From: Acholoe squamosa
Lineage: Eukaryota; Annelida; Polychaeta; Phyllodocida; Polynoidae
Reading direction: 5' to 3'
DNA: 64,000 nucleotides
Assembly (NCBI GenBank): GCA_949317995.1
Contig: OX439045.1
Span: 2,513,174 to 2,577,173 of the forward strand
Shown: positions 1,046 to 62,988 of the stretch, in pieces
Numbering within the stretch: the first letter of the stretch is position 1
Layout of the letters: the number at the start of each line of letters is the position of its first letter
The notes under the pieces: generated by a model
The model's input: the letters and a program-made list of their open reading frames with translations, nothing else
What the model was told of the DNA's origin: nothing
The model's database searches: none
Translations under genes and position numbers: made by a program

Positions 1046-1271
1046 GGAGGTGTGTCAGGAGTGAGATGTGAGTCTCCTCCCTGGTGTGCTCATGCAGTGG
1101 TGGCACTTGAGGTGTTAGGTGCCAGATTTTGGCATGTGTCTGTGGCAGTGCCTAGCTTGGTGTCAGTGGACAGTTCAGGGTGGGGGGGGGGGGTGTGTGT
1201 GTGTCCATTTAAGGAGTGTGTGGCTGGTATTGGAGCATCAGTTCCTCTCTGGAAGTCACTGCTGTAGTACC

Positions 1272-1751
1272 ATGGCCCACCTACAAGCTCTCTTTGCTCT
1301 GCCTGTCCCCCAGGTGATGGAGGTGGGGAGTCCAGCTAGGGCCCTGGTTGAGTCTAACCAGACCATCCATTATGGGTACATAGTGAGTAATTTCAAAGAG
1401 ATCATTGAGCATGGTGATGTGATGGTCTGTAATTACTCCTGCCATTATTTCCTGGGCTCAGCCTTGCGTCGGGGGGCCACTGTGGCCCTTCTGACTAGGG
1501 CCTTGGGCAGTATGGGTTTCTGGCCCATGGATTATAACCTAGGGCCGCGGGAGCGAGTGCTATGGGATTATTTGTTGGCGGCATCCCTCCTCGATCTTGC
1601 GGCATCCGGGAATCCATCCACGGCTGCCGAGTATGGACTGGGGATGCTGGAGGCCCGGCTCGCTGAGTGGGAGCAGGATCACGGCCATATGTATGGCTCG
1701 GACTCGGCCCCGGACTCTCCCATTGATGTTGAACCCGAGGATCTGTGGTAG
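1272..1751 (+). CDS. Unknown protein, antisense to and convergent with env, with a histone-type mRNA 3' end
   Basis: I do not recognise this protein. The frame is open from 1119, but that part crosses a G-homopolymer and is low complexity. The ATG at 1272 has a good context (CCATGG) and gives 159 residues. A second in-frame ATG at 1317 lies just after a strong splice-acceptor-like tract (CTCTGCCTGTCCCCCAG ending at 1313), so a spliced form starting there (144 residues) is an alternative. The product has a mixed, non-repetitive composition, a helix-prone leucine/alanine-rich middle (DYLLAASLLDLAAS) and an acidic tail ending EPEDLW. No signal peptide, membrane span or zinc motif is evident. The segment is clearly more GC-rich than the AT-rich DNA to its left. 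A perfect histone-type 3' processing hairpin begins 47 nt after the stop, which argues that the plus strand is transcribed. The env gene on the other strand ends 149 bp away, tail to tail. It may be an accessory gene inside the retroelement or a neighbouring or captured host gene; the sequence does not decide. Confidence 0.5.
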   Translation: MAHLQALFALPVPQVMEVGSPARALVESNQTIHYGYIVSNFKEIIEHGDVMVCNYSCHYFLGSALRRGATVALLTRALGSMGFWPMDYNLGPRERVLWDYLLAASLLDLAASGNPSTAAEYGLGMLEARLAEWEQDHGHMYGSDSAPDSPIDVEPEDLW

Positions 1752-1795
1752 GATCCCGACTGACTGAAACCTAGGGTGTAAAAACCCGCCATCCC

Positions 1796-1814
1796 AAAGG
1801 CCCTTTTCAGGGCC
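1796..1814 (+). terminator. Histone-type pre-mRNA 3' stem-loop
   Basis: AAA followed by GGCCCTTTTCAGGGCC (1799-1814) fits the metazoan replication-dependent histone stem-loop consensus GGYYCUUYUNAGRRCC: a 6-bp stem GGCCCU/AGGGCC, loop UUUC, and the usual CCAAA-type 5' flank. The 3' flank (GGCAAA) departs from the usual ACCCA. A purine-rich CCGAAAAG at 1825-1832 lies where a histone downstream element would be expected. Read on the minus strand the hairpin does not fit the consensus, so it belongs to a plus-strand transcript. Such ends are recognised by SLBP and U7 snRNP and give non-polyadenylated, S-phase mRNA. Confidence 0.75.
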
Positions 1815-1900
1815 GGCAAATTGTCCGAAAAGTTCTGAATACTGTCTCTGATGTGTTGTCTCCTGGTGGTGGACTGGGGGCAGCTTAGGCTGTGGGCAGT

Positions 1901-4525
1901 CTAGGCTGTTTCCACAGTCACCGGGGAGGGCTGGTGGTTTAGAAAATTAGCAATAGTCTGCATGTTTGACCTTGCGGTCTCCTCCTGTTGTTCGTCAATA
2001 ATTATATCTGTTGTATTTTCCAGTGCTGTCATGGTCACCGGGCTGGTGCCACAATCATTCTGGAGAAGCATGGAGTAGTACAGTCCTTTGTTTTTAAGGG
2101 CTGGTATAGTGCTGAACCTAGTGCGCCAAGGTAGGTGTATCACCTGAGGGAGGTGATAAGCAAATTCTCCTCTCTGTGTTGTTATAACTACTGGTCCATT
2201 CCAGGTAAATATAGCCTTAGGTAGTGGGAAGGTTTTAACCACTATATCCTTATAGGTCGGGGCAGCTGCTGATTTAATCTCATCAAATTCATGTGGTATT
2301 GGCCTCAAGGGTAGCGCGAAGTTTGAGTCTCCACAATATATTTTAAAATATATTGTGGGGTTTGTGCGCTTGGCCACATTTTTCTTGCCACAGTGTGTCT
2401 GTGCAAATTTCTTAAGGTACTTCATTATTCTGTAGGCTGAGTAGATGGTCAGGGTGAATAATATAGCAATTATCAGGGTGTGGGTTTCCTGAATTGTGAG
2501 GAAAGGGGTGTGGGTTTCCTCTGTAGGGGTTAATTTGGTAGGATTCTTATCTGGGAGCAATTTGTGTAGGGGCAGCTCGGTGACTAGTCTGAATGCTTTG
2601 GCTGTAGGCAGGTAGGCTACAGTCCCTCCTAGTCTGTATAATTTGAGTAGTATGTATACTATAAAAATGTGAGCTGATATCCCTAGGATGAGTGCTAAGC
2701 TTTGGAAGATTGGATGCTCTGTAACTCGACGTAGGTATGATTCCTCGTAGCGCGTTTCCATTTCCTTATTAAGGTTGGAGGCATCTTTTAATACTGTTTT
2801 GGCAAAGGGCTCTAAATTTAGTTGAGTAATATCATCCATGATTGGATTTTCCTGTAGTTTTTCTAAGGTTCTAGAAAGGTTTACTACTGGGAAATTTGGA
2901 AGATTCTCTCTTTCATCTGGTTTGGTTTCAGAAATTTTGTTAAGTGCTGCCATGAATGGTAAATTAATTGTCTTGAGAATGTAATGAAATGATAAGGTTG
3001 AGTTACAGGGCAACCTTGTGTTTGGAAGAGAAAATTCTCCTACACTGATCGTGCACCCACAGGGTACACCAATGATTGAGTAGGACTGGGCCTTCCGAGT
3101 TTCAGACGTTTTACCATGGCAGTTGATAAAGTAATGGGGTTCATTAGTAGTGACCAGATACTCATCTTCAGAAATAGAAATAGCATGGGTGGTAGGTGCT
3201 TGCAGTGGTGAAACTGTAAACTTGCAATGTTCCTTAATCTGTTGAGCCTGGTTAGTAAAAATGGCTACAGGGCATGTAGGCCTGTGTTTATAGATTCTAC
3301 CATTTACATCTCTGCATACCTTTACTGTAGTACCTTCACATGCCTGCATATCTGCTGAGTCCAATTCGATGAATAATGATTCGTCGTAAGATACTGCTAG
3401 AAACTCAGTCGTGGTTTGTAGTTTGGTGACTCCTCTGGTGGGGGTCTCCTGTGTGTCTATAGGCATGGGTGATGTAATCATTTGGTACAGTTTAAAGGTT
3501 GAGGTGGTAGATTGTATTATAATGTCCAGATGAATATATATATGGTGAGCTGAGTAAGTGTATGAGGTCAGCTTCTGTGAATAATAGAAATCTAAGTCCT
3601 TAATTGCGACTTGTGCTCCAGGGTGTGTAATCCTAAGTTTGTTATTAATGTCAATTAGGTATCTAGCAAGGTCTGAGGGTGGTACTATATCAGGGGTTAG
3701 GATCCCTGATGATAGCATCCTCAGGGCTGCATTTGTCCTTTGCAGTGATTGGACTGTATTCATTCTTGCTGCTATGATAATTAGTGCATCATTTAATACT
3801 TGCATTTTCTCCCTTTGAGTTTTCTCGTGCCTTGAATATGAGTCAAGTGACCTGGACATGTTAGAGGCCCACAGGTTGACAGTGTCACCTATGGTGTTGA
3901 TTGTGCTGTCCAGTACTTTCTTATCTTGGATGTATGCTTTAACAAACTTATCTTGTCTGTCTGTGATCTTTTCAATGAGACTAGCTGCTTCCTGATCTTG
4001 TTTAGCAAATTTTCTTAGTATTTCATCTATGTTCTTGAGCTGTCCCATTACTTGGTTTACATCTTCTACTGTGGCTAGACCTAGCACACCGCGAAACAGG
4101 GGTGCTAGAAAACCCAGTATGGCCTCTCTTTTGGCCTTGTCCAATGTGTTTATGGGGTTGGATAAGAACAATTTGATGGAGGCTAGTGTTTCATTTATCT
4201 CCTTGTCTGCAATTTCCAGCAAGGTGTCTAGCTCCTTAGCTTGTTGGATAATTTGGCCAGAGGTATGATCTTGTAGAGTAGGAGTGGTCAAATGGAGTAT
4301 TCTATCCCTTATGGATCCTTGGGTAACGGGTGCCCGAGGTATCTTGTAGGGAATAGCTAACAACAGTGTTGTGGTTGTATGTCCATTGACCAATGGTTGA
4401 GGGCTAGGTTTGAATACTACTCCTATGTTTTGTCTCACCACAGGTGTATAGCCTGCAGTAAGTGGTTTTATAGTATATAATAACAGCATAGTTAGCAGTA
4501 TGGGTGAAACTCTCAGTCTCCCCAT
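1901..4525 (-). CDS. env: Retroviral-type envelope glycoprotein (errantivirus/baculovirus F-like)
   Basis: Membrane-fusion glycoprotein of the retroelement, expected on the cell surface and on particles. The ATG at 4525 (context ACCATGG) was chosen: the frame extends six codons further but only from a TTG. It gives 874 residues. Starting at this ATG there is a clear signal peptide (about 25 residues, hydrophobic ILLTMLLLY core). A dibasic KAKR site near residue 130-133 is followed by a glycine/hydrophobic fusion-peptide-like segment (LGFLAPLFRGVLGL) and a long heptad-like helical region, the order seen in F-type envelopes. A cysteine-rich section lies near residues 395-507. A transmembrane span (about 606-628) is followed by a second hydrophobic span (about 678-699) and a further 175-residue C-terminal part, which is unusual. 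Several NxS/T sites are present. The frame is intact. It lies about 800 bp downstream of pol, so expression by splicing is inferred. Assignment rests on architecture, not on a database search. Confidence 0.8.
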   Translation of the reverse strand: MGRLRVSPILLTMLLLYTIKPLTAGYTPVVRQNIGVVFKPSPQPLVNGHTTTTLLLAIPYKIPRAPVTQGSIRDRILHLTTPTLQDHTSGQIIQQAKELDTLLEIADKEINETLASIKLFLSNPINTLDKAKREAILGFLAPLFRGVLGLATVEDVNQVMGQLKNIDEILRKFAKQDQEAASLIEKITDRQDKFVKAYIQDKKVLDSTINTIGDTVNLWASNMSRSLDSYSRHEKTQREKMQVLNDALIIIAARMNTVQSLQRTNAALRMLSSGILTPDIVPPSDLARYLIDINNKLRITHPGAQVAIKDLDFYYSQKLTSYTYSAHHIYIHLDIIIQSTTSTFKLYQMITSPMPIDTQETPTRGVTKLQTTTEFLAVSYDESLFIELDSADMQACEGTTVKVCRDVNGRIYKHRPTCPVAIFTNQAQQIKEHCKFTVSPLQAPTTHAISISEDEYLVTTNEPHYFINCHGKTSETRKAQSYSIIGVPCGCTISVGEFSLPNTRLPCNSTLSFHYILKTINLPFMAALNKISETKPDERENLPNFPVVNLSRTLEKLQENPIMDDITQLNLEPFAKTVLKDASNLNKEMETRYEESYLRRVTEHPIFQSLALILGISAHIFIVYILLKLYRLGGTVAYLPTAKAFRLVTELPLHKLLPDKNPTKLTPTEETHTPFLTIQETHTLIIAILFTLTIYSAYRIMKYLKKFAQTHCGKKNVAKRTNPTIYFKIYCGDSNFALPLRPIPHEFDEIKSAAAPTYKDIVVKTFPLPKAIFTWNGPVVITTQRGEFAYHLPQVIHLPWRTRFSTIPALKNKGLYYSMLLQNDCGTSPVTMTALENTTDIIIDEQQEETARSNMQTIANFLNHQPSPVTVETA

Positions 4526-5349
4526 GGTGCTTGTGTAAAGCAAGTTTGCTGTTTAAAGTCTTGTCAAATTTGTAGTGATTTGGTGCTGGTAAAGTCTAAG
4601 TGTATGGTGTAACACTTTAAATGAAGTGGTTCAAACTGTACCTTTGCAAGATTGAGCTGTCTTGGCAATATGTCCGGTGAGTCTATAGAGGTTGACCAGT
4701 AAATGGTAAGGTCAGGTTGAAGGTGAAGTAGGTGTGTTCTTTATCCTAGTGCAGTCTCTCCTAATGGAGAAGTGGGCTGGCTAATTCCCAAGTGGGGTCC
4801 TGTAGACTTGTGTTCCAGACTGCAGCTGGATGAAGACTGATGGTGGGCTATGGTCCACAGTGCTTCTTATGTAGCCTACCCTACCCACATCCATTGTGGG
4901 CCTGGTATTGTTTCTCTGGAGACAATGCATTAATCTCCAGTGTCTGCTAACTGTGGGGTCTATTGTGTAGTCTGTGTACTGGTAATTAGCTCCTCCTGTC
5001 ATCCAGGACAGCCATTCATGACCGTCTAGACAGTTGTCTGAGGGTAGCTTATAAGGTCAATTGATCTCTATAGACTGCTGTGTTGGCATAGCGCGCTCTT
5101 TCATGTGGGGATTAGGCTTTAGACACTCCATTGTGTTACCCTTACTCTTCTTAGACTTCATGTCTGCTTTACTTGGGGGGTCCCAGTCTTTGACCCTTTC
5201 AGAGGCAATAACCTACTGATATATTTACAAATTTGATTGGCTTTATATACATAGTAATTCATTATCAGTCACACATGTCTTATGTGTGGATGAAGAGAAT
5301 TTGTAATACATTTTGAAAATCTTATGACTTTGGTATCTCAATCTTGTTT
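4526..5349 (-). other. pol-env intergenic segment of the retroelement
   Basis: About 820 bp without a convincing gene. It should contain the splice acceptor for env; AG dinucleotides occur just upstream of the env ATG (for example TTTACACAAG ending at 4530), but none is clearly best. The only ORF of note is a 73-codon frame described separately. Confidence 0.45.
4781..5002 (-). CDS. Small ORF between pol and env, doubtful
   Basis: 73 codons from a genuine ATG (weak context GGATGA), not low complexity, on the same strand as pol and env and in the same frame as env but separated from it by stops. It resembles no protein I recognise. It could be a short accessory ORF, a remnant of an env leader, or chance. 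Confidence 0.2.
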   Translation of the reverse strand: MTGGANYQYTDYTIDPTVSRHWRLMHCLQRNNTRPTMDVGRVGYIRSTVDHSPPSVFIQLQSGTQVYRTPLGN

Positions 5350-8300
5350 CTAATTTCTTGAAACTGCACCACACCTAGATGTCTTTCTTAGTATGTGGTG
5401 TGCAGGCCTAGGCTTGATAGGGCCTATGCCTGTGGTTTCTCTTGTAAGGGTGATATCATTTTTGTTCCTTACAATTTTGCTGTAGTATTTGGCCTCATGT
5501 GGAATAAGCCTGTGTGCAAATTCATTGTTTCTGACAGCCACAACCTTTTTCAGTCTGTCTATGTGCACTGGTCTGGCCACCAATAGATTGGTGTCCAAGT
5601 TTTTGAGTTTGGCACTTGTCAAACTAGGTCTATCTACTACAACATATTGTCCCATAAAAAGGGGTTGAAGTTTCTTACACTCTGTGTTGGTCAGGATTCT
5701 TGGTATGTTTAGGTACACCATGTCGGTGACCTTGATTTCCTGTGGTGTAAGTTTCTTATCATATCTATTTTTCCTTTCCTTTTGTAGCTTGGCGACCCTT
5801 TCTATAGCTTTCCTCCTAGAGGTATCTTGATTTGTTATCATGTTAGCTACATGGTCTGCTACTGTGGATATGTCTTCCTGTATTCCCAGCCCTAAGTCCA
5901 TTGGGGTGGCTGGGTTTCTTCCATGGAGTAGGAAGAAAGGGGTGAATCCTGTGGTTTGGGATTCAGTGTTGTTTAATGCAAAGGTTATGGGTTCAATAAA
6001 TGAATCCCAATTGTTTTGGTGCTTTGAGCAGAATGCTCTGAGTGCTGTGCCTATGCTAGCATTGAATCTCTCTACAAGCCCATTTGATTGTGGCCTGTAT
6101 GGTGAGGAGAATTTATGTTTGATCTTGAGGTGTTTAGTTAACTTTGTGAACTTTGCACCTGTATAACATGTCCCATTGTCTGTTTGAAGAGTGGCTGGTG
6201 TTCCATGATGACAAATTATATTCTTGTAGAACTCTGCTGCTGTTGTCTCAGCTTTTAAGTCAGTAGTAGCCCAAGCTGTTGCATATCTGGTAGCATAATC
6301 TATGCAGACTTGTATATGTTTGTTTCCCCTGGCAGTTGTGGGAAGTGGTCCCACCGCGTCTAGGTTTAGGAACTTCATTGGTGAAGTCATGTACTCTCTC
6401 ACTGTCATTGGTGTTTTGTGTGAGTGTACTTGCCTTTTTGCTGTGAGGCATGTGTGGCAGGTGGAAACATATTTTGTTGTGTCTGCTAGCATAGACTTCC
6501 AATATACCCTAGGTCGGAGTGCTGACAGCATCCTACTAGAACCAAGATGGCCGCCAGTAGGTGAGTCATGGAAATACTGTAGTGTACTTGTTATCCATTG
6601 CTGTGGTATAACAATTTGAAGTGGTACAGTATTGGTCTTTCTCCAATTTATGGGGCATATATGAACTAATGTACCATTTACCAAGGTGTATGTCTGGCCT
6701 TGGTTGATGATTCTATTTCCTTGTGCTTTTGGTGCAGGCAAGGTTCCATCCTCAAGATATTGTATGAGGGGCAATAGGTCCTTGTCTTTCCTTTGTTCCA
6801 AGCCAAGGTTTGTACCTGAGATGGATGTGTCGGGAATCTGATCCAGTAGTTGATTTATATCTAGCACATGTTGTTTTATTCTGTCTCTTTCTTTTTCTTT
6901 TTCATCGACTATTGGCCTATCTTGTGCCTTTTGTTGGGGTGTGTCACTCTTGTTTTGGTGTGTAGGCTCCTTTGGAGGGCCTATTCTCGCCTTGATGGGA
7001 GTGGCAACCTTTTTCTTTAAGGGCACAATTTGCTTTTTGTCATTCTTCTTTGTCTCAGAGTTCTTTGACTTAGTAGATGCAGTGTCTTTTGTGACATTGT
7101 TCCTGGCAGGTGGGGTTTTGGTAGGTTTGTTTCCTGTGACCTTTTTCTCATTTAGAATAGCTTGTGATTGTGTGGGGGGTTTTGGTGTGCCCTCCTGAAT
7201 CATTTCTCTAGTCTTTGAGCGTGTGGTCATAGGACACAAATGGTTTGATGTTTCCTCTCCCTGCATTGGTTCAAAGAATCTGACTGATTTAGAAGTTGCT
7301 TGAGTAATAGCATATATTGTGTCTTCTGGATCTTCATCATCTGAGTCAGGTGGGGTGAAGGGTGGCTCCTTAGGAGTTGCCTTCAGCATCTGATTGAGTG
7401 ATAAGAATTCAATAGGCTCGAAGTCATTATCTGGAAAGAGTTGTGAGTATTCTCTCTCACAGTGGCAAAACACATAGTGTGTAGATTGCTTCAAGATACC
7501 CCTAATGGGTGTCTCTGGCTTTTCAATGGTGTTGGGTGGATCATCCCTTTTGAATGGTACTTTCTTTGTTACTTTTGCAAACTTGGTTCTATTGGCTGCT
7601 CTAACTCTCCTTGGTGGGGGTGGAGGGTTAGTCATGGGTCCAGAGTCTGGGTATTCTCTTCTAGACATAGCATCTGGTGGTGTGTTATCATCACCTTTCA
7701 CGTGTTGGATGGTGAATGAAAATTGTTGTATGTCTAGAGCCCATCTGGCCCATCTATGTGTGAGTCCTGTATTGGTTAGCAGTGGGATTAGAGCTGCATG
7801 GTCTGTGTATAATTGGAAGTGTCTAGTCTCTAGATAGTGTCTGAAGTGTAATACTCCATACACTACTCCCAGTAGTTCTCTCTCTGTGGTATTGTAATTT
7901 CTCTCATGTTTGGAGAGGGTTCTACCTGCAAAGGCTACTGGTCTGAGCACTCCTTCATTATCTCTCTGTGAGAGTACAGATCCTAAACTCACATTGGAAG
8001 CATCAGTTGCCAAACTGAACTCTTTCTCATAGTTTGGATATCTGAGAAGAGCATTGGTACAGAGGGCATGCTTTAATGTTTTGAAAGCATTATCTGCCTC
8101 TTCTGTCCAGACAAATGCTTTGAGATGTGTCTGTAGATCATATAATGGTCTAGCAATTTGGGCATAACCTTTGATAAACTTTTTGAAGTATTGGCATAGG
8201 CCTGTGAAGGATCGGACATTTTTGACTGATTTTGGTGTTGGGAAGGTTTTGATTGACTCCACCTTTGTGGGAGATGGTTGTAGTCCCATGGGTGTGACTC

Positions 8301-10107
8301 TCATTCCCAAGAAGTCTATTCTGTCTATGAAGTATTCACATTTTGATTTCTTCAGTTTGAGTTTACCAATTCTTAGGCTGTTGAACACATCTTCCAGGTC
8401 ATGGAAGTGTTGTTCGATTGATGGTGATAATACCAATATGTCATCTAGGTATGGTAGGGCACATTTGTACTTGAGTTTGTTCAGAATTAATGTGACTAGA
8501 TGGCAGAATCCCGCCGGTGCCGTCGCTAAACCCATCGGCATCCTTTCATAGACATATTTTTTGTCATTTGCTATGAATGCGGTTTTATGCTGGTCCTCCT
8601 GTCTTATAGGAATTTGAAAAAATCCCTGTTGGGCATCTAGCTTACTGAATACTCTTGGTCTGAGTGACCCTATCATGTCTAGAGTGTCATCGGCCCGGGG
8701 TGTAGATAAGGCTTGATTTATCGTGTTCTGGTTCAAATAACGAAAATCTGTGACGAGCCGATGGCCTCCCGATGATTTTTGTACTAAAAAGGATCTGGAG
8801 GCCCAGGGGCCCTCGGCACATTCTCTCAGAATGCCCTGTTGTACTAGCCTTTCACACTCTTCCCCTATTGCGGCCTGTTTTTCTGGTGTTTGTCTATATG
8901 GTAGGAAATGACATGGTACTGCCTCAGGTTTTACATGTATTGAGTGTGTATACAGGTGTGTGGCACCAATGTCTCCATCTTTTCCTACAAATACATCATC
9001 ATACTTGGTCAGCAGTGATTTTAATCTATCATGCTGATCTTTGGATGTGAGCACAGATTTTGGTGGAACATTCTCTTCCAATTCTGGCTCGAGGTCATGT
9101 GCCTCACTATGTATAGCAGCTATTTCAGAGAGTCTGATTGAGTTGGGTTCAGGGTCAGCATATGTGGACTCACAGTCTGAGTCTGTGTCACTGAATTGAG
9201 TTACGTCCTCAGGCCGTATGGCTGAGATGGATTGATCAGTGTGTGGGGTAGTGTCTGACATCTGTTGAGGTTTTTCTAAATCAGATTCCTTGACTTCCTG
9301 AAATAGAGCTATGATGGCACCCTTTTTGATTTTATGTGGGCGCCTGCTGGTGTTGAGTAACACTAGGGGATGTTTGTTATTTTCCCTGGGGGTTACTGCT
9401 GCCCTTTGAACTAGATATGGGGCATTGTTGTTTCTTTGGAGGTTATCTACTACTCCAGTTTTGCCTTGCAGTGATTGAGTAGATGTGACCTTACCCAATA
9501 CTGCAAGTTCAGAGAATGGAGGGATGGTAAAATCCCTCACTGCCCTAATGGGTTTGAGAATTTGTTCAGGATCAACATTAAATTCAATTTGAGATTTTGT
9601 AGTGCTTAAGAAATCTGTGCCGAGTACAATGGGCTGTGTGAGGTTGGGTATTACAGCAAATTGGTATTGGAATCTGACACCTTGGATTCTAAAGTTCAGC
9701 ATAGCTGAATGTCTAACGTGACACACCGATCCATCTGCCAAGTGGATGTTGGTTTTAGATTTCCTCAGTTGGATATGGAATCTCTTTTGGAGATCCATGA
9801 GGAATGATTGTCTGACACAGGTGATAGTAGCACCCGTATCAACCAAACATTGTACATCCGAAACATCATATAGATTTGCATTGATACAGCCATTTTGAAG
9901 AAGTACAATAGAAAGCTTGGTACTCTCACCTGTATCCTTTGATGATGAATCTGGTGGGGTGATGTGTATCACTGATGGACGTCTCTGTCTGTTAGATGGT
10001 AGATTGGCACTAGCAATTGTCTCTGGTTGGATCTTTGTTAATCCTGATCGATTGTTTGTATTTGGGGTGTCACAGTGCACTGGCCCATCGGCACTGTGAC
10101 ATCCTAG
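5350..10107 (-). CDS. pol: Pol polyprotein: protease, reverse transcriptase, RNase H, integrase (Ty3/Gypsy type)
   Basis: Enzymatic polyprotein of the retroelement. The pol frame is open from 10191 and has no ATG near its beginning; it is entered by -1 frameshifting at 10107-10113. Residue numbers count from the GTG at 10080. Aspartic protease: DTGA at 81-84 and VLGTDF at 152-157. Reverse transcriptase about 385-600: LDAQQGF at 481-487 and the active site YLDD at 544-547. RNase H: D693 (ATDAS), E733/E735 (TERELL), D760 (YTDH), D803. Integrase: HHCC finger H1171, H1178, C1208, C1211, then the D,D-35-E triad D1241, D1301, E1337, and a GPY/F-like module near 1474-1510. Between RNase H and integrase lies an unusually long linker (about 810-1075) with proline, acidic and lysine-rich patches. 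No chromodomain is seen. All key residues are present and the frame is uninterrupted, so the copy looks young or constrained. Confidence 0.95.
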   Translation of the reverse strand, partial: LGCHSADGPVHCDTPNTNNRSGLTKIQPETIASANLPSNRQRRPSVIHITPPDSSSKDTGESTKLSIVLLQNGCINANLYDVSDVQCLVDTGATITCVRQSFLMDLQKRFHIQLRKSKTNIHLADGSVCHVRHSAMLNFRIQGVRFQYQFAVIPNLTQPIVLGTDFLSTTKSQIEFNVDPEQILKPIRAVRDFTIPPFSELAVLGKVTSTQSLQGKTGVVDNLQRNNNAPYLVQRAAVTPRENNKHPLVLLNTSRRPHKIKKGAIIALFQEVKESDLEKPQQMSDTTPHTDQSISAIRPEDVTQFSDTDSDCESTYADPEPNSIRLSEIAAIHSEAHDLEPELEENVPPKSVLTSKDQHDRLKSLLTKYDDVFVGKDGDIGATHLYTHSIHVKPEAVPCHFLPYRQTPEKQAAIGEECERLVQQGILRECAEGPWASRSFLVQKSSGGHRLVTDFRYLNQNTINQALSTPRADDTLDMIGSLRPRVFSKLDAQQGFFQIPIRQEDQHKTAFIANDKKYVYERMPMGLATAPAGFCHLVTLILNKLKYKCALPYLDDILVLSPSIEQHFHDLEDVFNSLRIGKLKLKKSKCEYFIDRIDFLGMRVTPMGLQPSPTKVESIKTFPTPKSVKNVRSFTGLCQYFKKFIKGYAQIARPLYDLQTHLKAFVWTEEADNAFKTLKHALCTNALLRYPNYEKEFSLATDASNVSLGSVLSQRDNEGVLRPVAFAGRTLSKHERNYNTTERELLGVVYGVLHFRHYLETRHFQLYTDHAALIPLLTNTGLTHRWARWALDIQQFSFTIQHVKGDDNTPPDAMSRREYPDSGPMTNPPPPPRRVRAANRTKFAKVTKKVPFKRDDPPNTIEKPETPIRGILKQSTHYVFCHCEREYSQLFPDNDFEPIEFLSLNQMLKATPKEPPFTPPDSDDEDPEDTIYAITQATSKSVRFFEPMQGEETSNHLCPMTTRSKTREMIQEGTPKPPTQSQAILNEKKVTGNKPTKTPPARNNVTKDTASTKSKNSETKKNDKKQIVPLKKKVATPIKARIGPPKEPTHQNKSDTPQQKAQDRPIVDEKEKERDRIKQHVLDINQLLDQIPDTSISGTNLGLEQRKDKDLLPLIQYLEDGTLPAPKAQGNRIINQGQTYTLVNGTLVHICPINWRKTNTVPLQIVIPQQWITSTLQYFHDSPTGGHLGSSRMLSALRPRVYWKSMLADTTKYVSTCHTCLTAKRQVHSHKTPMTVREYMTSPMKFLNLDAVGPLPTTARGNKHIQVCIDYATRYATAWATTDLKAETTAAEFYKNIICHHGTPATLQTDNGTCYTGAKFTKLTKHLKIKHKFSSPYRPQSNGLVERFNASIGTALRAFCSKHQNNWDSFIEPITFALNNTESQTTGFTPFFLLHGRNPATPMDLGLGIQEDISTVADHVANMITNQDTSRRKAIERVAKLQKERKNRYDKKLTPQEIKVTDMVYLNIPRILTNTECKKLQPLFMGQYVVVDRPSLTSAKLKNLDTNLLVARPVHIDRLKKVVAVRNNEFAHRLIPHEAKYYSKIVRNKNDITLTRETTGIGPIKPRPAHHILRKTSRCGAVSRN

Positions 10108-10113
10108 TTTTCC
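10068..10113 (-). promoter_or_regulatory. -1 programmed ribosomal frameshift signal (gag to pol)
   Basis: In the sense direction the gag frame ends ..CAG GAA AAC TAG. The heptamer GGAAAAC (10113-10107) directly abuts the gag stop. The pol frame is -1 relative to gag. After a 5-nt spacer comes an 11-bp perfect stem: TGTCACAGTGC (10101-10091) pairs with GCACTGTGACA (10078-10068), closing a 12-nt loop CGATGGGCCAGT. Heptamer, spacing and stem match retroviral -1 frameshift signals. GGAAAAC is not the commonest heptamer but is of the GGAUUUA kind used by mouse mammary tumour virus. Loop GGG could also pair with CCCC just after the stem to make a pseudoknot. Confidence 0.8.
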
Positions 10114-11741
10114 TGGTTCTGTGGGGTGGTTGAGATGCTTGCCACCAGGAGCTTGGAGATTTGATCCATCACATGAGGTGGTATTTGGGGGTTACTTTGT
10201 TGGTTCCCCTGGTAACCTCTTGTGTCAGGTTTGTAATCCTCCTGGCGTGGGTTGGAACCCTGGTTATATTGACCAGAGTTGCTGTATTGACCGGAGTTGT
10301 TGGATCTCTGGTTGTTGTAGGCGCCATTGTTGTTGTAGGATCCACTGTTGTAGTTCCTATGTGGACTCTGGCCCCTACTGTTGGATCCTTGACTATAGGA
10401 TCCAGAGTTGTTTGAACCCTGGCTGTTGTTGTAGGATCCAGAGTTGTTGTAGGATCCAGAGTTGTAGTTCCTATGTGGACTCTGGCTCCTACTGTTGGAT
10501 CCTTGATTATTATAGGATCTGCCATTACTTGGGGTTCTGTCTCTCCTATCACTGTATGAAGAGTTACCATTGTTGGAGTTGGAAGAGCTGTTGTCTTTCC
10601 TACTGTTGTGACCCCCCCGGTTGTTGTTGTTGCCCCCTCTACCTCTACCTCTATTGGATTGGTAGTTGGGGTCATAGTTATTTCCTCTGTATCTACCGGT
10701 AGGGTCTCTTGATGCAACCTTAGCTTCCTGTTGCCTTACATGGGCACTAGACATTAGGTTAACATCTTCATCTGAACTAGTGCTGATTTCCTGGACCTTT
10801 TTCTTAGTAGGCTGTGGGTTGGTTTCTGCATCCCTTACCTTCCTAGATCTCTCTTGGGTCTCAACCTCTAGGGCTAGGTCTAGGGCTTGGTCAAAAGAGT
10901 CTATTTTCTTGTTCTCAAGAGCTATAGAGATCCAGGGCCTCATGCCTTGGGTAAATGCCTTGCTTAGGGTTTCATCATTCTGGCGTTGGGCATTACACAC
11001 TTTCCTGAGATGGCATGCATAGTCTAGAACAGGTTCATCTATCTTTTGTGCACGGAGTGCAGTCCTTGAGATTATATTGTCTCGAGTAGCAAAATACTCT
11101 TTTAATTTATTCACTACATTGGTCCATGTCAACATATCAGGTGTGGCACTCTCCCTGAAGGATTCAAACCAAGCTAGTGCTTGTCCTTCGAGGTACTTGG
11201 GTAAATATGTTACCATGGTGTCACTGTCTGTCACTTTGTACTTATCCTTCAGATATTCTGGGAATTTGTGATCAATGAATAATGCTGTTGACATGAGTGG
11301 TGATGGGTGTGAAAAGGTTTTGGGTTTTGTTACCTCATGTATCCTGATCTTTCTGTCGTCCTGCTGTTTATTGTCTATGAGCTTGGTCATGTTGGACACC
11401 ATGGAGATTATGATGTCATCTTTGGATCCAGAGGCAGATGGTGTGACAACAGGTGTGATGGCAGGTGTGTGAGGTTGTGGGGTCTGGGATGATACCATCT
11501 TCATGAGATCTGCTATCTGTTGTTGTTGTCTCTCTAGGGACTTCCGCTGATCTTCCATGGCCTTCTGTTGAGCATCTATTGCTGCATTCCTCTCTGCCAG
11601 TTGTTGGTTGAGGATCCTCTCCCTTTCCTCCTGCTGGGACTTGTTGGTCTCTAGGGCAGTAACTGCATCTTGGATGGCCTTCTCATAGGCCCTTATCTTC
11701 TCAGCTGTCTGATTAGGTTGGGGGCCTTCATCGGTGTCCAT
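10104..11741 (-). CDS. gag: Gag polyprotein
   Basis: Structural protein of the retroelement particle. The first ATG of the frame, at 11741, has a strong context (ATCATGG) and gives 545 residues. In order: a glutamine/glutamate-rich coiled coil (about residues 14-83), a proline/threonine linker, a retrotransposon capsid domain (about 137-297, with the helix-rich WF..F and ALRAQK region typical of retrotrans_gag), a charged linker, then an RG-rich patch (about 352-377). A long Ser/Tyr/Asn/Gly/Gln-rich low-complexity region (about 395-512) follows, with repeated GSYNN-type motifs and two near-identical copies of a RGQSPHRNYNSGSYN-type block. There is no CCHC zinc knuckle; the nucleocapsid role is presumably taken by the RG/Asn-rich tail. 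The frame stays open upstream to 12161 without an ATG. It is followed at its stop by the frameshift signal into pol. Confidence 0.85.
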   Translation of the reverse strand: MDTDEGPQPNQTAEKIRAYEKAIQDAVTALETNKSQQEERERILNQQLAERNAAIDAQQKAMEDQRKSLERQQQQIADLMKMVSSQTPQPHTPAITPVVTPSASGSKDDIIISMVSNMTKLIDNKQQDDRKIRIHEVTKPKTFSHPSPLMSTALFIDHKFPEYLKDKYKVTDSDTMVTYLPKYLEGQALAWFESFRESATPDMLTWTNVVNKLKEYFATRDNIISRTALRAQKIDEPVLDYACHLRKVCNAQRQNDETLSKAFTQGMRPWISIALENKKIDSFDQALDLALEVETQERSRKVRDAETNPQPTKKKVQEISTSSDEDVNLMSSAHVRQQEAKVASRDPTGRYRGNNYDPNYQSNRGRGRGGNNNNRGGHNSRKDNSSSNSNNGNSSYSDRRDRTPSNGRSYNNQGSNSRSQSPHRNYNSGSYNNSGSYNNSQGSNNSGSYSQGSNSRGQSPHRNYNSGSYNNNGAYNNQRSNNSGQYSNSGQYNQGSNPRQEDYKPDTRGYQGNQQSNPQIPPHVMDQISKLLVASISTTPQNQEN

Positions 11742-12161
11742 GATGGAGGGTGTGGGGGAGGTGTCTCTGGAGGAGTGGCTGTCAAAGGCTGGAGCTGGGG
11801 TGGAGGATCTAGATGAGGGTGTGGATCCACCCCCTGAGGCAGATCCTTCTTCCCCTGAGGTAGATAGCGTGAGTTGGGCGTCCTGTAGAGATCCCTGGGA
11901 AATGTTGGATCCCTGAGAACTGGTTGTTCCCTGAGTAGACAGGGTGGGTGGTGTGGGGTCTACTGAGTGTGGGTCTGTTGTATTGGAGGCTGGTTTGCCT
12001 CCTGTGGGCCTCCTAGATCTTGGTGGGAGGGAGACCTCTTCAACAGGCCCCTGACTACGTAAGGTCTTTGTGTGTTGTTCTGCCAGCTTGACTGATAAGG
12101 CCTTGATGTGTGTGGTGGACCTCACTGACGTGTGGGAGACCTCACTGACGTGTGGGAGACC
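11742..12161 (-). other. Open in-frame extension upstream of the gag ATG
   Basis: The gag frame runs without a stop from 12161 to the first ATG at 11741, 140 codons, with a Ser/Thr/Pro-rich disordered composition. There is no ATG in it. It could be translated from a non-AUG codon or joined to an upstream exon by splicing, or it may be untranslated leader. Its distal end overlaps the 20-bp tandem array. Confidence 0.4.
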
Positions 12162-12515
12162 TCACTGACGTGTGGGAGACCTCACTGACGTGTGGGAGAC
12201 CTCTCTGACGTGTGGGAGACCTCACTGACGTGTGGGAGACCTCACTGACGTTTGGGAGACCTCACTGACGTTTGGGAGACCTCACTGACGTTTGGGAGAC
12301 CTCACTGACGTTTTGGGAGACCTCACTGACATATGAGAGATCTTACTGTTGTGTGAGAGATCTCATTGATGTGTGGGAGATCTCACTGATGTGTGGGAGA
12401 TCTCATTGATGTGTGGGAGATCTCACTGATGTGTGGGAGATCTCATTGATGTGTGGGGGATCTCACTGATGTGTGGGAGATCTCACTGGTATGTGGGAGA
12501 TCTCACTGGTGACCT
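12115..12515. repeat. 20-bp tandem array in the retroelement leader
   Basis: About 20 units. The block next to gag (about 12121-12320) has the consensus GACGTGTGGGAGACCTCACT. The distal block (about 12361-12515) has GATGTGTGGGAGATCTCACT, differing by C-to-T changes, with two degenerate units between. It sits immediately upstream of gag, where Drosophila gypsy carries its Su(Hw) insulator repeats. A regulatory function here is inference. Confidence 0.9.
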
Positions 12516-12577
12516 TGGTGGGTATGGTGTCAAGGTCAAGGTCACTGGGTGGGTGGAGTGGGTCTAACTGTGTGTAT

Positions 12578-12721: not shown

Positions 12722-12948
12722 TCTCCACCACTTTGTCATACTAGTGATTGGCATGATCAGGTTGTCATATGAGAAATATCATAAGACTAGTGGTATATAG
12801 TGTAATTATCTCAAGGCTCTTATAAATAGTGTTATTTCCAGTTGTCACTGGTTTATTCAGCTTTAGGCAACATGTAAGAAATATCAATCATACAGTAGTT
12901 AGTATGTAGGTAATTTGTACATACAGTAAACATACAGTAATTTATAAA
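12722..12948 (-). promoter_or_regulatory. Candidate end of the 5' LTR (TATA box, poly(A) signal, PBS)
   Basis: Read in the sense direction: TTTATAAA at 12948-12941, AATAAA at 12857-12852, and TATGACA ending at 12734 as a possible LTR terminus. Then AAG and TGGTGGAGA (12730-12722), which is complementary to the last nine nucleotides of some tRNA-Ala species. Order and spacing suit a short R-U5 followed by a primer-binding site. With no second LTR to align, this is weak. Confidence 0.3.
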
Positions 12949-14180
12949 GTACAATGTTCAGTTCCACTCCACCTGTGAGGTATTAATAATACAGTGTCCA
13001 GCATGCTTCTAGGTGGGTTCCCACACCTAGCTCCTGACCTGCTGCTTAGAGGAATAATGTAATAATGAATAACTTTACCCTCTGGTGGAAGTCTTGAAGA
13101 AGATAGCCCCTGGCCACTAATGGTAGAAAACCAATGCCTGTCTAGCATAGTTTCACCATAGTGCAGTGGTATAGCGGGTAGCAGGAGATGACTGGAGATG
13201 TTACCTCTAGAGCGGTTCTTGGTGATGTGTCTTCCTGGAGGTGCAGACAGGCTATTTGTAGCAAATCTTGGAAAAGCACCTCCAGACTGACTGGAGCCAG
13301 CAGCATCTGCCTAACTCTACAATTGTTTGAGGGGACCCTTTCAAGTGTCACAGGGGGACAAAGGACCCCCATGGACGCCGCTATGGCCCCCATTGTCTTG
13401 GTCGGTTCTGCATCTTTAGACCCTCATATCTCGGCCGTTTATGCGTTTATAACCGCCATTTTGGGCATGCGCGGAGTTGAATATGCCAAGTTTATAATGC
13501 CCGCTGGATAGGCGCGTAATTTGCGCCGGTTTGTCTGTGGTGCACTCGGAGCTCCTTTCAGTCTCCATGGCATAACTTCCTTAATACTGGGAGTTCCGCC
13601 TTGATCTTGGGCTCATTCTGACCGTCTAATTATGGGCTTTCCATAGAATTTTTGATATTTGACCTAGGTTGCTCAGGAGCGACGCTAGAGCGACCGGAAG
13701 GTTATGGCGTCGTGCTTATGTAACCCATTGTTCAGTCCTTAGAGTGCTCAGACACTCATGACGGCGTCAGCGGTGCTCAGGCACCCGTGACGGCCGGTTG
13801 CATTCACTTACAAGTTATTAATTTGTGCATTGAACCATGAGGTCGCACACTGAGACCCTCATTTTTATTATATTGTGCAGTGAACCATTAGGTCGGAGCC
13901 TTTGATGTCATAAACTCTGTCTAACTGACTGTGGCTGGTGTGCAGTGGGGCATGAACGCTCTTATACAAAGTTTGAGCGCTCTTATAGCTCTTAGAACCA
14001 ACCTATGTATTAATTTCATAGATATTTCTTTGATTAATACAAAATATGTTAGAATTTATGGAACAATAAAATGGTATATCATAGATGCAGACAGTACATC
14101 TTTTACGTGGATATTTTTTATATAACCTTCAAAATAAAATAAAAAGTAAGAAAAGTTTCAATAGGGACAAAATTAGAAGC
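12949..14180. other. Probable U3/5' flank of the retroelement and adjoining spacer
   Basis: No gene seen. It has minus-sense TATA-like sequences at about 13446-13452 and 13489-13495 in a CpG-bearing stretch, and short local duplications (GTGCTCAG..CACTCATGACGG at about 13750-13795; TGAACCATGAGGTCG / TGAACCATTAGGTCG at about 13833-13893). The outer LTR boundary could not be placed. Confidence 0.35.
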
Positions 14181-61139: not shown

Positions 61140-62165
61140 TAATATATATCATGTGTAATAAATCAGTAGAACGCAGTACAATGGGCACTCTCCACACCCT
61201 CTTAAAGCCTTAAGTCCATGATTACATCATGTCCTGTTGTCGTCATTGCACATGATGCATGCAGTCCTCCATCTACGTATCAACAAGACATACTGCTTTC
61301 AGTTTACATCTCCAAAATTCACAACAGCCATATCTGACAGATAACTGGCCTTTATGACCGAACGACCTTATAAGGAATCTGTGCACAACCCCAGGCACAA
61401 CCACTATCAAGGAGCATATTATGATATATGTTCCTTGCCACTATCCAGTATCTTCTGTCTGCACCCATCACTCCCTCAGCTATTGATGTACTTGGTGAGT
61501 GGCCGCATTCAGGTACTCACCAGGGCATAATTATACATCGACCTTAAAGGGTCTAAGGACAGGCCTCACAATGACTATCTTGTTTCACAAACTAAAATTA
61601 AAAAGAACTTTAATAAAACTTGTAGCGAGGATAAGAGAGAAAAACGTCAGTTTTGATGAAGTGTTGCTGTCATGTGTTGTGGTGTCTCCTCTTGCCGCTA
61701 GGGGTAAGTTTTAAGTCACTTGACCTACTGAGACGCTGCCTGACGGTGTGTGGGGCAGTTTGTGGTTCATGTAACGGCCGCTAGGGGTAATGTGCTTTAT
61801 GCGCCTTATAAAACATAGGGGAATATATGAATCGATGGCTGCTTCACATACGTTTGGGAACCTGTTTAAATCGATGTTTTACACAGTCTAGTAGTTATTT
61901 TCCCTTTGTCCAAAACTGGTCTTTAAAATTCTGGCCAAAGTCGCAAGAATTGACCAATATCAAAGGTCAGTTGGTAGGGCTTACTGCAATGGGACCCCCC
62001 ATATATCTACTAAAGTACAGAAAAGAAGACAATAAAGACAAATCAAGCAAAGGAGTGAGGGTGAAGGCAGTGTAACAAAGTGTCCATTGTTGTTAAATGT
62101 ACCTGTATCACAGTCCAACCTCTCCCCCCCCCCCAACTCCCAACCTCCTCCATGGACCCCACATG
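61140..62165. other. Non-coding spacer
   Basis: No gene seen. Weak MITE scraps around 61205-61260 (GATTACATCATG, GCACATGATGCATG) and a C-run at 62127-62135. Confidence 0.4.
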
Positions 62166-62184
62166 TACTGCACGCCATCCCGCC

Positions 62185-62760
62185 AAGGGCAGCACGATGC
62201 CTCCAAGTTCATGCTCCTTGGTCGTCATGATGCACCAATGCAGCATGATGCCTCCAAGTTCATGCTCCTTGGTCGTCATGATGCACCGATGCAGCATGAT
62301 GCCTCCAAATTCATGCTCCTTGGTCGTCATGATGCACCGATGCAGCATGATGCCTCCAAATTCATGCTCCTTGGTCGTCATGATGCACCGATGCAGCATG
62401 ATGCCTCCAAATTCATGCTCCTTGGTCGTCATGATGCACCGATGCAGCATGATGCCTCCAAATTCATGCTCCTTGGTCGTCATGATGCACCGATGCAGCA
62501 CGATGCCTCCAAGTTCATGCTCCTTGGTCGTCATGATGCACCAATGCAGCATGATGCCTCCAAGTTCATGCTCCTTGGTCGTCATGATGCACCGATGCAG
62601 CACGATGCCTCCAAATTCATGCTCCTTGGTCGTCATGATGCACCAATGCAGCATGATGCCTCCAAGTTCATGCTCCTTGGTCGTCATGATGCACCAATGC
62701 AGCACGATGCCTCTAGGTTCATGTGCCTGGGTTGGCATGATGCACCAATGCAGTAATGAT
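62185..62760. repeat. 51-bp satellite derived from the GCATGATG motif, about 11 copies
   Basis: Unit contains TGCAGCATGATGCCTCCA, AGTTCATGCTCCTTGG and TCGTCATGATGCACCAA. Since 51 is a multiple of three, long ORFs appear on both strands (up to 303 codons). They are tandem-repeat by-products, not genes. Confidence 0.97.
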
Positions 62761-62809
62761 GGGCAGATTTGGCAGTACTTCATTGGTACATCATGAAGAC
62801 CAATGGGCA

Positions 62810-62988
62810 CAGGGGCGGATCCAGAAGGGGTGGTCCAGGGGGGCACAGCCAAGAAAATTTGGGGGGTTTTCGGGCCATGTTTTCTATAGTTAAGAGTCAT
62901 AGCCTGGGCCAATTTTAGGGGGTCTAGGGGGGCATCAGGGGGTCTAGGGGTCACGTCCCCCTAGGCCCCCCCCGTGGATCCGCCCCTG
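62810..62988. mobile_element. CAGGGGCGGATCC-terminal element, 5-bp duplication
   Basis: Ends CAGGGGCGGATCC and GGATCCGCCCCTG, flanked by GGGCA at 62805-62809 and 62989-62993. It lies directly next to the 51-bp satellite. Confidence 0.85.

Follow-up and report, generated by a model that had tools for sequence, protein, structure and literature searches.

Can a gene carried by a retroelement end its mRNA in the manner of a replication-dependent histone gene? This question is raised by a stretch of 64,000 nucleotides from the polychaete Acholoe squamosa (the window, which is the whole stretch analysed), in which a plus-strand open reading frame (ORF) converging with a retroelement env gene is followed closely by a hairpin of the histone type. 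A first, sequence-only reading had drawn attention to this arrangement and had offered two settings for it, a gene inside the retroelement or an unusual host gene. To our knowledge, the histone mRNA 3'-end pathway has so far been thought to serve almost histones alone, and we know of no gene of a mobile element or virus, captured histones aside, that has a histone-type 3' end; judged by their titles and abstract openings, the papers listed by a literature search likewise report no such end in a retroelement. The ORF is probably an antisense accessory gene encoded by the element, with an mRNA that would be cut by way of U7 and SLBP and not be polyadenylated.

The retroelement and its antisense ORF

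The window by itself shows no LTR pair, and the 3' LTR was found in the flanking sequence to its left (-1722..-371, minus strand; L009:3778-5129). Comparison with the 5' LTR (1352 bp; 12734..14085, minus strand), to which it is identical at 1349 of 1352 bases (three differences), reveals an env-bearing element of the Ty3/gypsy type, about 15.8 kb long. The element is flanked by a target-site repeat, GATG or AGATG as judged by eye, and in all five of the other copies fetched over this stretch the 3' LTR match starts within two bases of the same place. On the minus strand lie gag (10104..11741), with a Ty3-type capsid just over the cut-off, pol (5350..9798), with reverse transcriptase, RNase H and integrase over the cut-off and a weak match only to protease, and env (1901..4525, stop codon 1901-1903), which encodes 874 residues. 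The assignment to the Ty3/gypsy-type LTR elements is made on the LTR pair, gag and the reverse transcriptase-RNase H-integrase domains, and for env on its relatives only. Tandem repeats were also observed: a 20-bp array between the 5' LTR and gag (12033-12568); imperfect 41- and 52-bp repeats between the antisense ORF and the 3' LTR (1-477), whose copy number seems to vary among copies of the element; and, at 62043-62900, a short tandem repeat that makes up long ORFs on either strand and is probably a minisatellite.

Its relatives make a baculovirus F-type fusion protein the most likely identity of env. Seven related proteins were found, among them P0001 and P0002 (ENA entries without a name), with 60% and 56% identity to env across 97% and 99% of its length, and P0006 of Argopecten irradians, which is 22% identical; the Pfam model Baculo_F scores over its cut-off in P0001 and P0006, but not in P0002 or in the env of the window itself. 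Viral contigs contained no relatives of env. We know of no errantivirus with an extra antisense gene. The element resembles errantivirus-type metavirids with a baculovirus F-like env in its gag-pol-env order, in its Ty3-type gag and pol and in the two env relatives that match Baculo_F; it differs from them in that its own env falls below the Pfam model and in the additional antisense gene. The Troyka elements of marine animals are also LTR elements and have molluscs among their hosts; in the passages seen of their description they have CG..CG ends and 3-bp target-site duplications (PMC12440569), from which the ends of the present element and its 4- or 5-bp repeat (by eye) differ.

The antisense ORF (1272..1751, plus strand) has 159 codons and ends 47 nt before the hairpin, as the sequence-only reading had described it; it begins in the context ACCATGG, and its stop codon is TAG (1749-1751). 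Because the LTR pair brackets the ORF and nothing lies between the ORF and env, the ORF is inside the element, antisense to gag, pol and env, between the env stop codon and the 3' LTR. The first of the two earlier settings, in which no 3' LTR separates the ORF from env, is therefore the correct one. The other, a unique host gene, does not fit the locus, because this segment belongs to an element with many copies, and a solitary host gene adjoining the element is rejected on the LTR pair, one member of which lies outside the window.

A longer ORF starting at an ATG at 1134 was considered. Thirty-eight copies of the element family to which the window belongs (family A) were aligned, namely the window itself and 37 loci selected for their similarity in DNA or protein, and since two of these loci (L003 and L038) are the same, 37 are distinct. 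Among the 38, a G/GT tract at 1178-1206 varies from 24 to 30 nt; this start is disfavoured because the varying length of the tract breaks its frame.

The product of the 159-codon ORF has a computed mass of 17.5 kDa and is acidic, with a computed pI of 4.6. No relatives were found among 5.8 billion proteins, whether a single sequence or an alignment of seven family members was used, nor among viral contigs. Pfam gave no match at E<=1, and thus no histone fold domain, and no Pfam family scored over its cut-off in any of the seven members; among solved structures there were weak matches only, the best at E 0.051 and 0.69. With low confidence, we suggest that the protein may serve the element as a regulator or accessory factor and be tied to dividing cells.

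Copies, families and selection

In the genome (1.48 Gb) a search with the 159-residue protein gave 1,670 candidates, the best 150 of which were scored. None of these 150 has a stop, 138 encode the identical protein, and all are 99-100% identical to family A. In each of the 38 aligned family A copies the ORF is open, as are the last 399 codons of env. Every genome search was scored from the best match downward (40 of 1,469 matches in one; 150 of 1,670 for the family A protein; 150 of 1,672 for the family B protein, below; 75 of 291,945 for the Rfam hairpin), so intact and similar copies are over-represented in these counts.

The Rfam histone hairpin search (best 75 of 291,945) returned host H1 genes and, in addition, a second family (B) of the antisense gene, whose protein has 161 residues and is 65% identical to that of family A. 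When the B protein was used in turn (best 150 of 1,672), 34 matches had 95-100% identity, 33 of them without a stop, and 116 had 75-89% identity, most of them with one stop; four of the 116 were read, and three of these four have a stop, which in each case is where the ORF naturally ends. From these, six representatives were picked by hand: the window (A), one of 22 B loci and the four C matches (C1-C4). Sequence past the 3' flank was examined in family A and in part of family B. All six representatives have intact ORFs of 157-161 residues, the five diverged ones being 65-79% identical. Every one of the 15 pairwise Ka/Ks values falls within 0.14-0.41, with Ks up to 0.95, and the excess of synonymous changes is significant (Fisher p below 1e-10) in all 4 of the 15 pairs that were put to this test. 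Purifying selection has thus acted on the ORF between families, the absence of which would have told against the sequence-only reading. A decayed relic (L047), excluded from the Ka/Ks counts for its broken frame, has lost the frame and kept the hairpin with AAAAG at 13 nt; ORF and hairpin have therefore probably been associated for a long time.

The 34 family B matches of 95-100% identity (best 150 of 1,672 scored) are spread over 20 contigs, each no more than about 345 kb from a contig end; for the small contigs C21, C36 and C38 the distance is that from base 1. Two of these loci (L054 and L055) were compared with the window by BLAST and contain the antisense gene and, of env, its final part only. 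The B matches, as represented by these two, are a subtelomeric amplification of a fragment made up of the antisense gene and the end of env. A domesticated host gene was considered for these copies and is unsupported: 22 subtelomeric copies have 11 non-synonymous and 6 synonymous variable sites, with no clear sign of selection.

Where did such a gene come from? It is possible, if somewhat unlikely, that a replication-dependent host gene was captured by an ancestral element, with promoter, ORF and 3' end as one block, and is now a passenger or a modified accessory gene. Its layout is like that of two host loci with histone-type ends (L048 and L052, described below), and the GC content of the ORF exceeds that of its surroundings, as this origin would have it. 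Against this, all of the scored matches belong to the element families (99-100% to A among the best 150 of 1,670; 75-100% to B among the best 150 of 1,672, a sampling in which a distant host gene would be hidden), the databases hold no relative beyond the weak structural matches, and purifying selection opposes the form in which the gene is a mere passenger. Capture concerns the origin of the gene and is compatible with an element-encoded accessory gene as its present state.

A second possibility concerns function. By analogy with HBZ of HTLV-1, the product might be a regulator of latency and proliferation that holds down sense expression and maintains division of the host cell. This is unlikely. 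The two genes share a position class, antisense in the 3' part of a provirus, and the predicted link to S phase and the acidity of the protein would suit such a role; HBZ has a bZIP domain, however, and neither bZIP nor any other domain scores over the Pfam cut-off in the seven members. More generally, the element gene resembles the retroviral antisense genes (HBZ, APH-2 of HTLV-2 and ASP of HIV-1) in that it is an antisense protein-coding ORF in an env-bearing provirus, and differs from them in its predicted internal promoter, in its histone-type end and in belonging to a Ty3/gypsy-type element rather than to the Retroviridae. According to the passages seen of one article, retroviral antisense transcripts start mainly in the 3' LTR (PMC10186651). 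In plants, the passages seen of another describe a conserved antisense ORF before the 3' LTR of the Ty3/gypsy elements Retand, Grande and RIRE2, a regular feature of Retand elements that mostly carries a TRP28 domain (PMC11963269); unlike the present element, these have no env in that region, and those passages mention no histone-type end. Antisense ORFs in proviruses and plant elements are therefore already known, and the new part is the histone-type end.

The histone-type 3' signal

The 3' ends of animal replication-dependent histone mRNAs have a 6-bp hairpin (GGYYYT-loop-ARRRCC) with an AAA flank shortly after the stop codon and a downstream element at 13 nt. All of these features are found behind the antisense ORF. 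The hairpin (GGCCCTTTTCAGGGCC; 1799..1814, plus strand) has six base pairs, the loop TTTC and the 5' flank CCAAA, in agreement with the sequence-only reading. It is followed by a 13-nt spacer (1815..1827, plus strand), the length found in the host H1 gene L049, and by AAAAGTT (1828..1834, plus strand), a putative histone downstream element (HDE) that the earlier reading had not included. By the known histone reaction, the cut would presumably be made near 1819, some 5 nt past the stem. The plus strand contains no AATAAA or ATTAAA at 1272-4600; variant poly(A) hexamers occur downstream (TATAAA at 2660 and AGTAAA at 3254).

How unusual the hairpin is varies with the strictness of its definition. 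A strict definition (six perfect pairs and a histone-like loop) finds one in the 64-kb window and none in 300 simulated windows of the same size and dinucleotide composition. A loose pattern gives two matches in the window, which are the same palindrome on both strands, where 0.42 are expected and 17 of 100 shuffles reach two. The earlier claim that a chance match in 64 kb is very unlikely is thus strong under the strict definition and weaker under the loose one. The 6-bp hairpin of consensus sequence and its AAA flank are present; the window copy scores 23.5 bits against the Rfam Histone3 model (RF00032; E 4.3e-4 for 729 bases), below the gathering score of 34, and an Rfam scan of the whole window at the gathering threshold gave nothing. 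The alignment to RF00032 is weakest just behind the stem, where the window copy has GGC and the model ACC. The hairpin of family B (GGCCCTTTTTAGGGCC) reaches 34.3 bits, over the cut-off, on the strand of the ORF. The hairpin is therefore real, and by the Rfam model the window copy alone is borderline.

The signal has been retained with the ORF. A 35-nt block of hairpin, spacer and AAAAGT, with three two-fold positions, has 1,161 matches in the genome, and its reversed control has none, so that in the other copies of the element, where the sequence-only reading had proposed to look for them, ORF (in the best 150 of 1,670) and hairpin are kept rather than lost. Both the hairpin and AAAAGTT are identical in all 38 family A copies. 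Among the six representatives the stem is the same in all and AAAAGTT stands 13-14 nt behind it in all; the loop of C4 is longer by one T (5 nt), and the hairpin lies 39 nt past the stop codon in B and 47 nt in A. There are no compensatory changes among the six, as the stem is invariant, and its pairing thus lacks that form of proof.

Comparison of A with B shows how far this conservation can be read. The hairpin is conserved at 19 of 21 positions and the HDE region at 18 of 20, only modestly above the immediate flanks (81-83%) because the tail of env is conserved too (92%). The 3' signal as a whole is 90% alike and the ORF 73%; upstream, 1131-1195 is 91% alike and 1060-1130 only 45%. Ks between the two families is 0.95 in the ORF and 0.18 in the env tail, a contrast that points to recombination between element lineages, and if so the Ks of the ORF gives no direct measure of how strongly the 3' signal is conserved.

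The host genome provides its own examples of this signal. The host histone genes compared were two H1 genes (L046 and L049); each has the hairpin, then ACC, and AAAAGTT at 14 and 13 nt, respectively. The arrangement of the 3' signal in the element is the same, save for the nucleotides just behind the stem, which are GGC in A and C1-C4, AAC in B and ACC in both H1 genes. AAAAGTT is also found 12-14 nt behind the hairpins of loci L050, L051 and L052, with AAAAGTG in L048 and AAAGGTG in L053. Host SLBP is represented by two adjacent matches on contig C9 (58.4 and 29.7 bits, cut-off 27). For U7 RNA nothing in the genome exceeded the Rfam cut-off, and a U7-like pattern had one match in the genome and two in controls. 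Like replication-dependent histone genes, the element gene is short and has no visible intron, and it shares AAAAGTT with the two H1 genes; unlike them it encodes a non-histone, acidic protein without a Pfam match, is present in high copy number inside a retroelement, and has GGC or AAC in place of ACC.

Several of these host loci are of interest in themselves. The H1 gene L046 has three tandem hairpins past its stop codon, and AAAAGTT follows the last one only. L048 (C1:85146222-85149267, minus strand) contains an acidic non-histone ORF of 152 residues that is followed first by a near copy of the hairpin and then by a full histone hairpin, with AAAAGTG at 13 nt; the genome has a single full copy and, on C5, a weak match of 34% (E 0.88), and Pfam gave no match. 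L052 (C6:10806708-10809753, plus strand) has a TATA box upstream of a non-histone ORF of 108 residues, whose only Pfam match is below the cut-off, and a histone hairpin 92 nt after the stop codon with AAAAGTT at 12 nt. L050 and L053 share an identical hairpin and spacer (ACCAGATATTCAC) and are 85-92% similar upstream; neither has a long ORF directly before the hairpin, and they may be remnants of another histone-type gene. The view that the signal is rare outside core histones is to be qualified accordingly, as this genome has two other small non-histone ORFs (those of L048 and L052) with a hairpin and AAAAGT.

Might the hairpin serve the other strand? The ORF could be real and the hairpin a structural or regulatory element of the sense genomic RNA, or an incidental palindrome, the antisense mRNA being polyadenylated further on. 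The palindrome does match on both strands, the env side is conserved as well, the window copy misses the Rfam cut-off, and the variant hexamers downstream could serve such an mRNA. We nevertheless consider this very unlikely: the histone-like loop, the CCAAA flank and AAAAGTT at histone spacing all lie on the plus strand, the hairpin keeps its place 39-47 nt after the stop codon in B and A, no canonical hexamer occurs at 1272-4600, and in family B the hairpin scores over the Histone3 cut-off on the same strand as the ORF. An origin of ORF and hairpin by chance, in non-coding DNA of the element, can be dismissed, since, even if ORFs of at least 159 codons arise in 8 of 500 shuffles of region 1001-1900, the idea is contradicted by the Ka/Ks values in all 15 pairs, the intact ORF in all six representatives, the lack of strict hairpins in the simulations and the number of pattern matches in the genome.

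A proposed route to a non-polyadenylated antisense mRNA

Sequences upstream of the ORF suggest where its transcript may begin. A weak TATA-like box (CATTTAAGG; 1206..1214, plus strand) is followed by an initiator-like TCAGTT (1238..1243, plus strand), which is kept in family B, may act as the initiator and places the predicted start of transcription at about 1240. Positions 1204-1212 are identical in all 38 family A copies (37 distinct loci) and 1234-1245, which include the initiator, in 37 of 38. Family B has TATAAAAGG at the place aligned with the box and TATCAGTTCC at a TATA-to-initiator distance from it, to which the weaker CATTTAAGG and CATCAGTTCC of family A correspond; the family A box is a poor TATA, and the segment from TATA to ATG is 75% alike between A and B, hardly above the ORF. 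With TATA box and initiator, ORF, hairpin and HDE, the locus would have what is expected of a compact gene in the histone style, and its mRNA is predicted to be about 580 nt long.

On the preferred reading, the element has a fourth gene on its antisense strand, between env and the 3' LTR. RNA polymerase II would start at the internal TATA/initiator promoter, near 1240, and a short intronless transcript would run through the 159-codon ORF. The host histone machinery, with SLBP on the hairpin and the U7 snRNP on AAAAGTT, would then cut this transcript about 5 nt behind the hairpin, and because its end is made by this cut, the mRNA would have no poly(A) tail. It would be exported and translated with SLBP and without splicing, mainly in S phase; expression confined to dividing cells would be a likely consequence. 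An end at about 1819 would stay clear of the convergent coding region of env, whose stop codon begins at 1901. It would also avoid the inefficient polyadenylation and largely nuclear location that are described for antisense RNAs of HTLV-1 and HIV-1 in the passages seen of one article (PMC10186651).

Taken together, these findings suggest that a retroelement lineage of the infectious type has probably adopted the replication-dependent histone mRNA pathway for a gene of its own, making a non-polyadenylated S-phase mRNA by means of host SLBP and the U7 snRNP and so tying a regulator of the element to host DNA replication. If this is true, a gene of a mobile element uses the histone mRNA 3'-end pathway, antisense proviral genes can be ended in a second way that needs no poly(A) signal, and expression of the provirus has a direct molecular link to S phase. 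The element would also offer a natural set of diverged signals with which to test which features of the hairpin and downstream element matter. For the host, which has 1,161 signal blocks in its one genome, the element may represent a load on the SLBP/U7 machinery.
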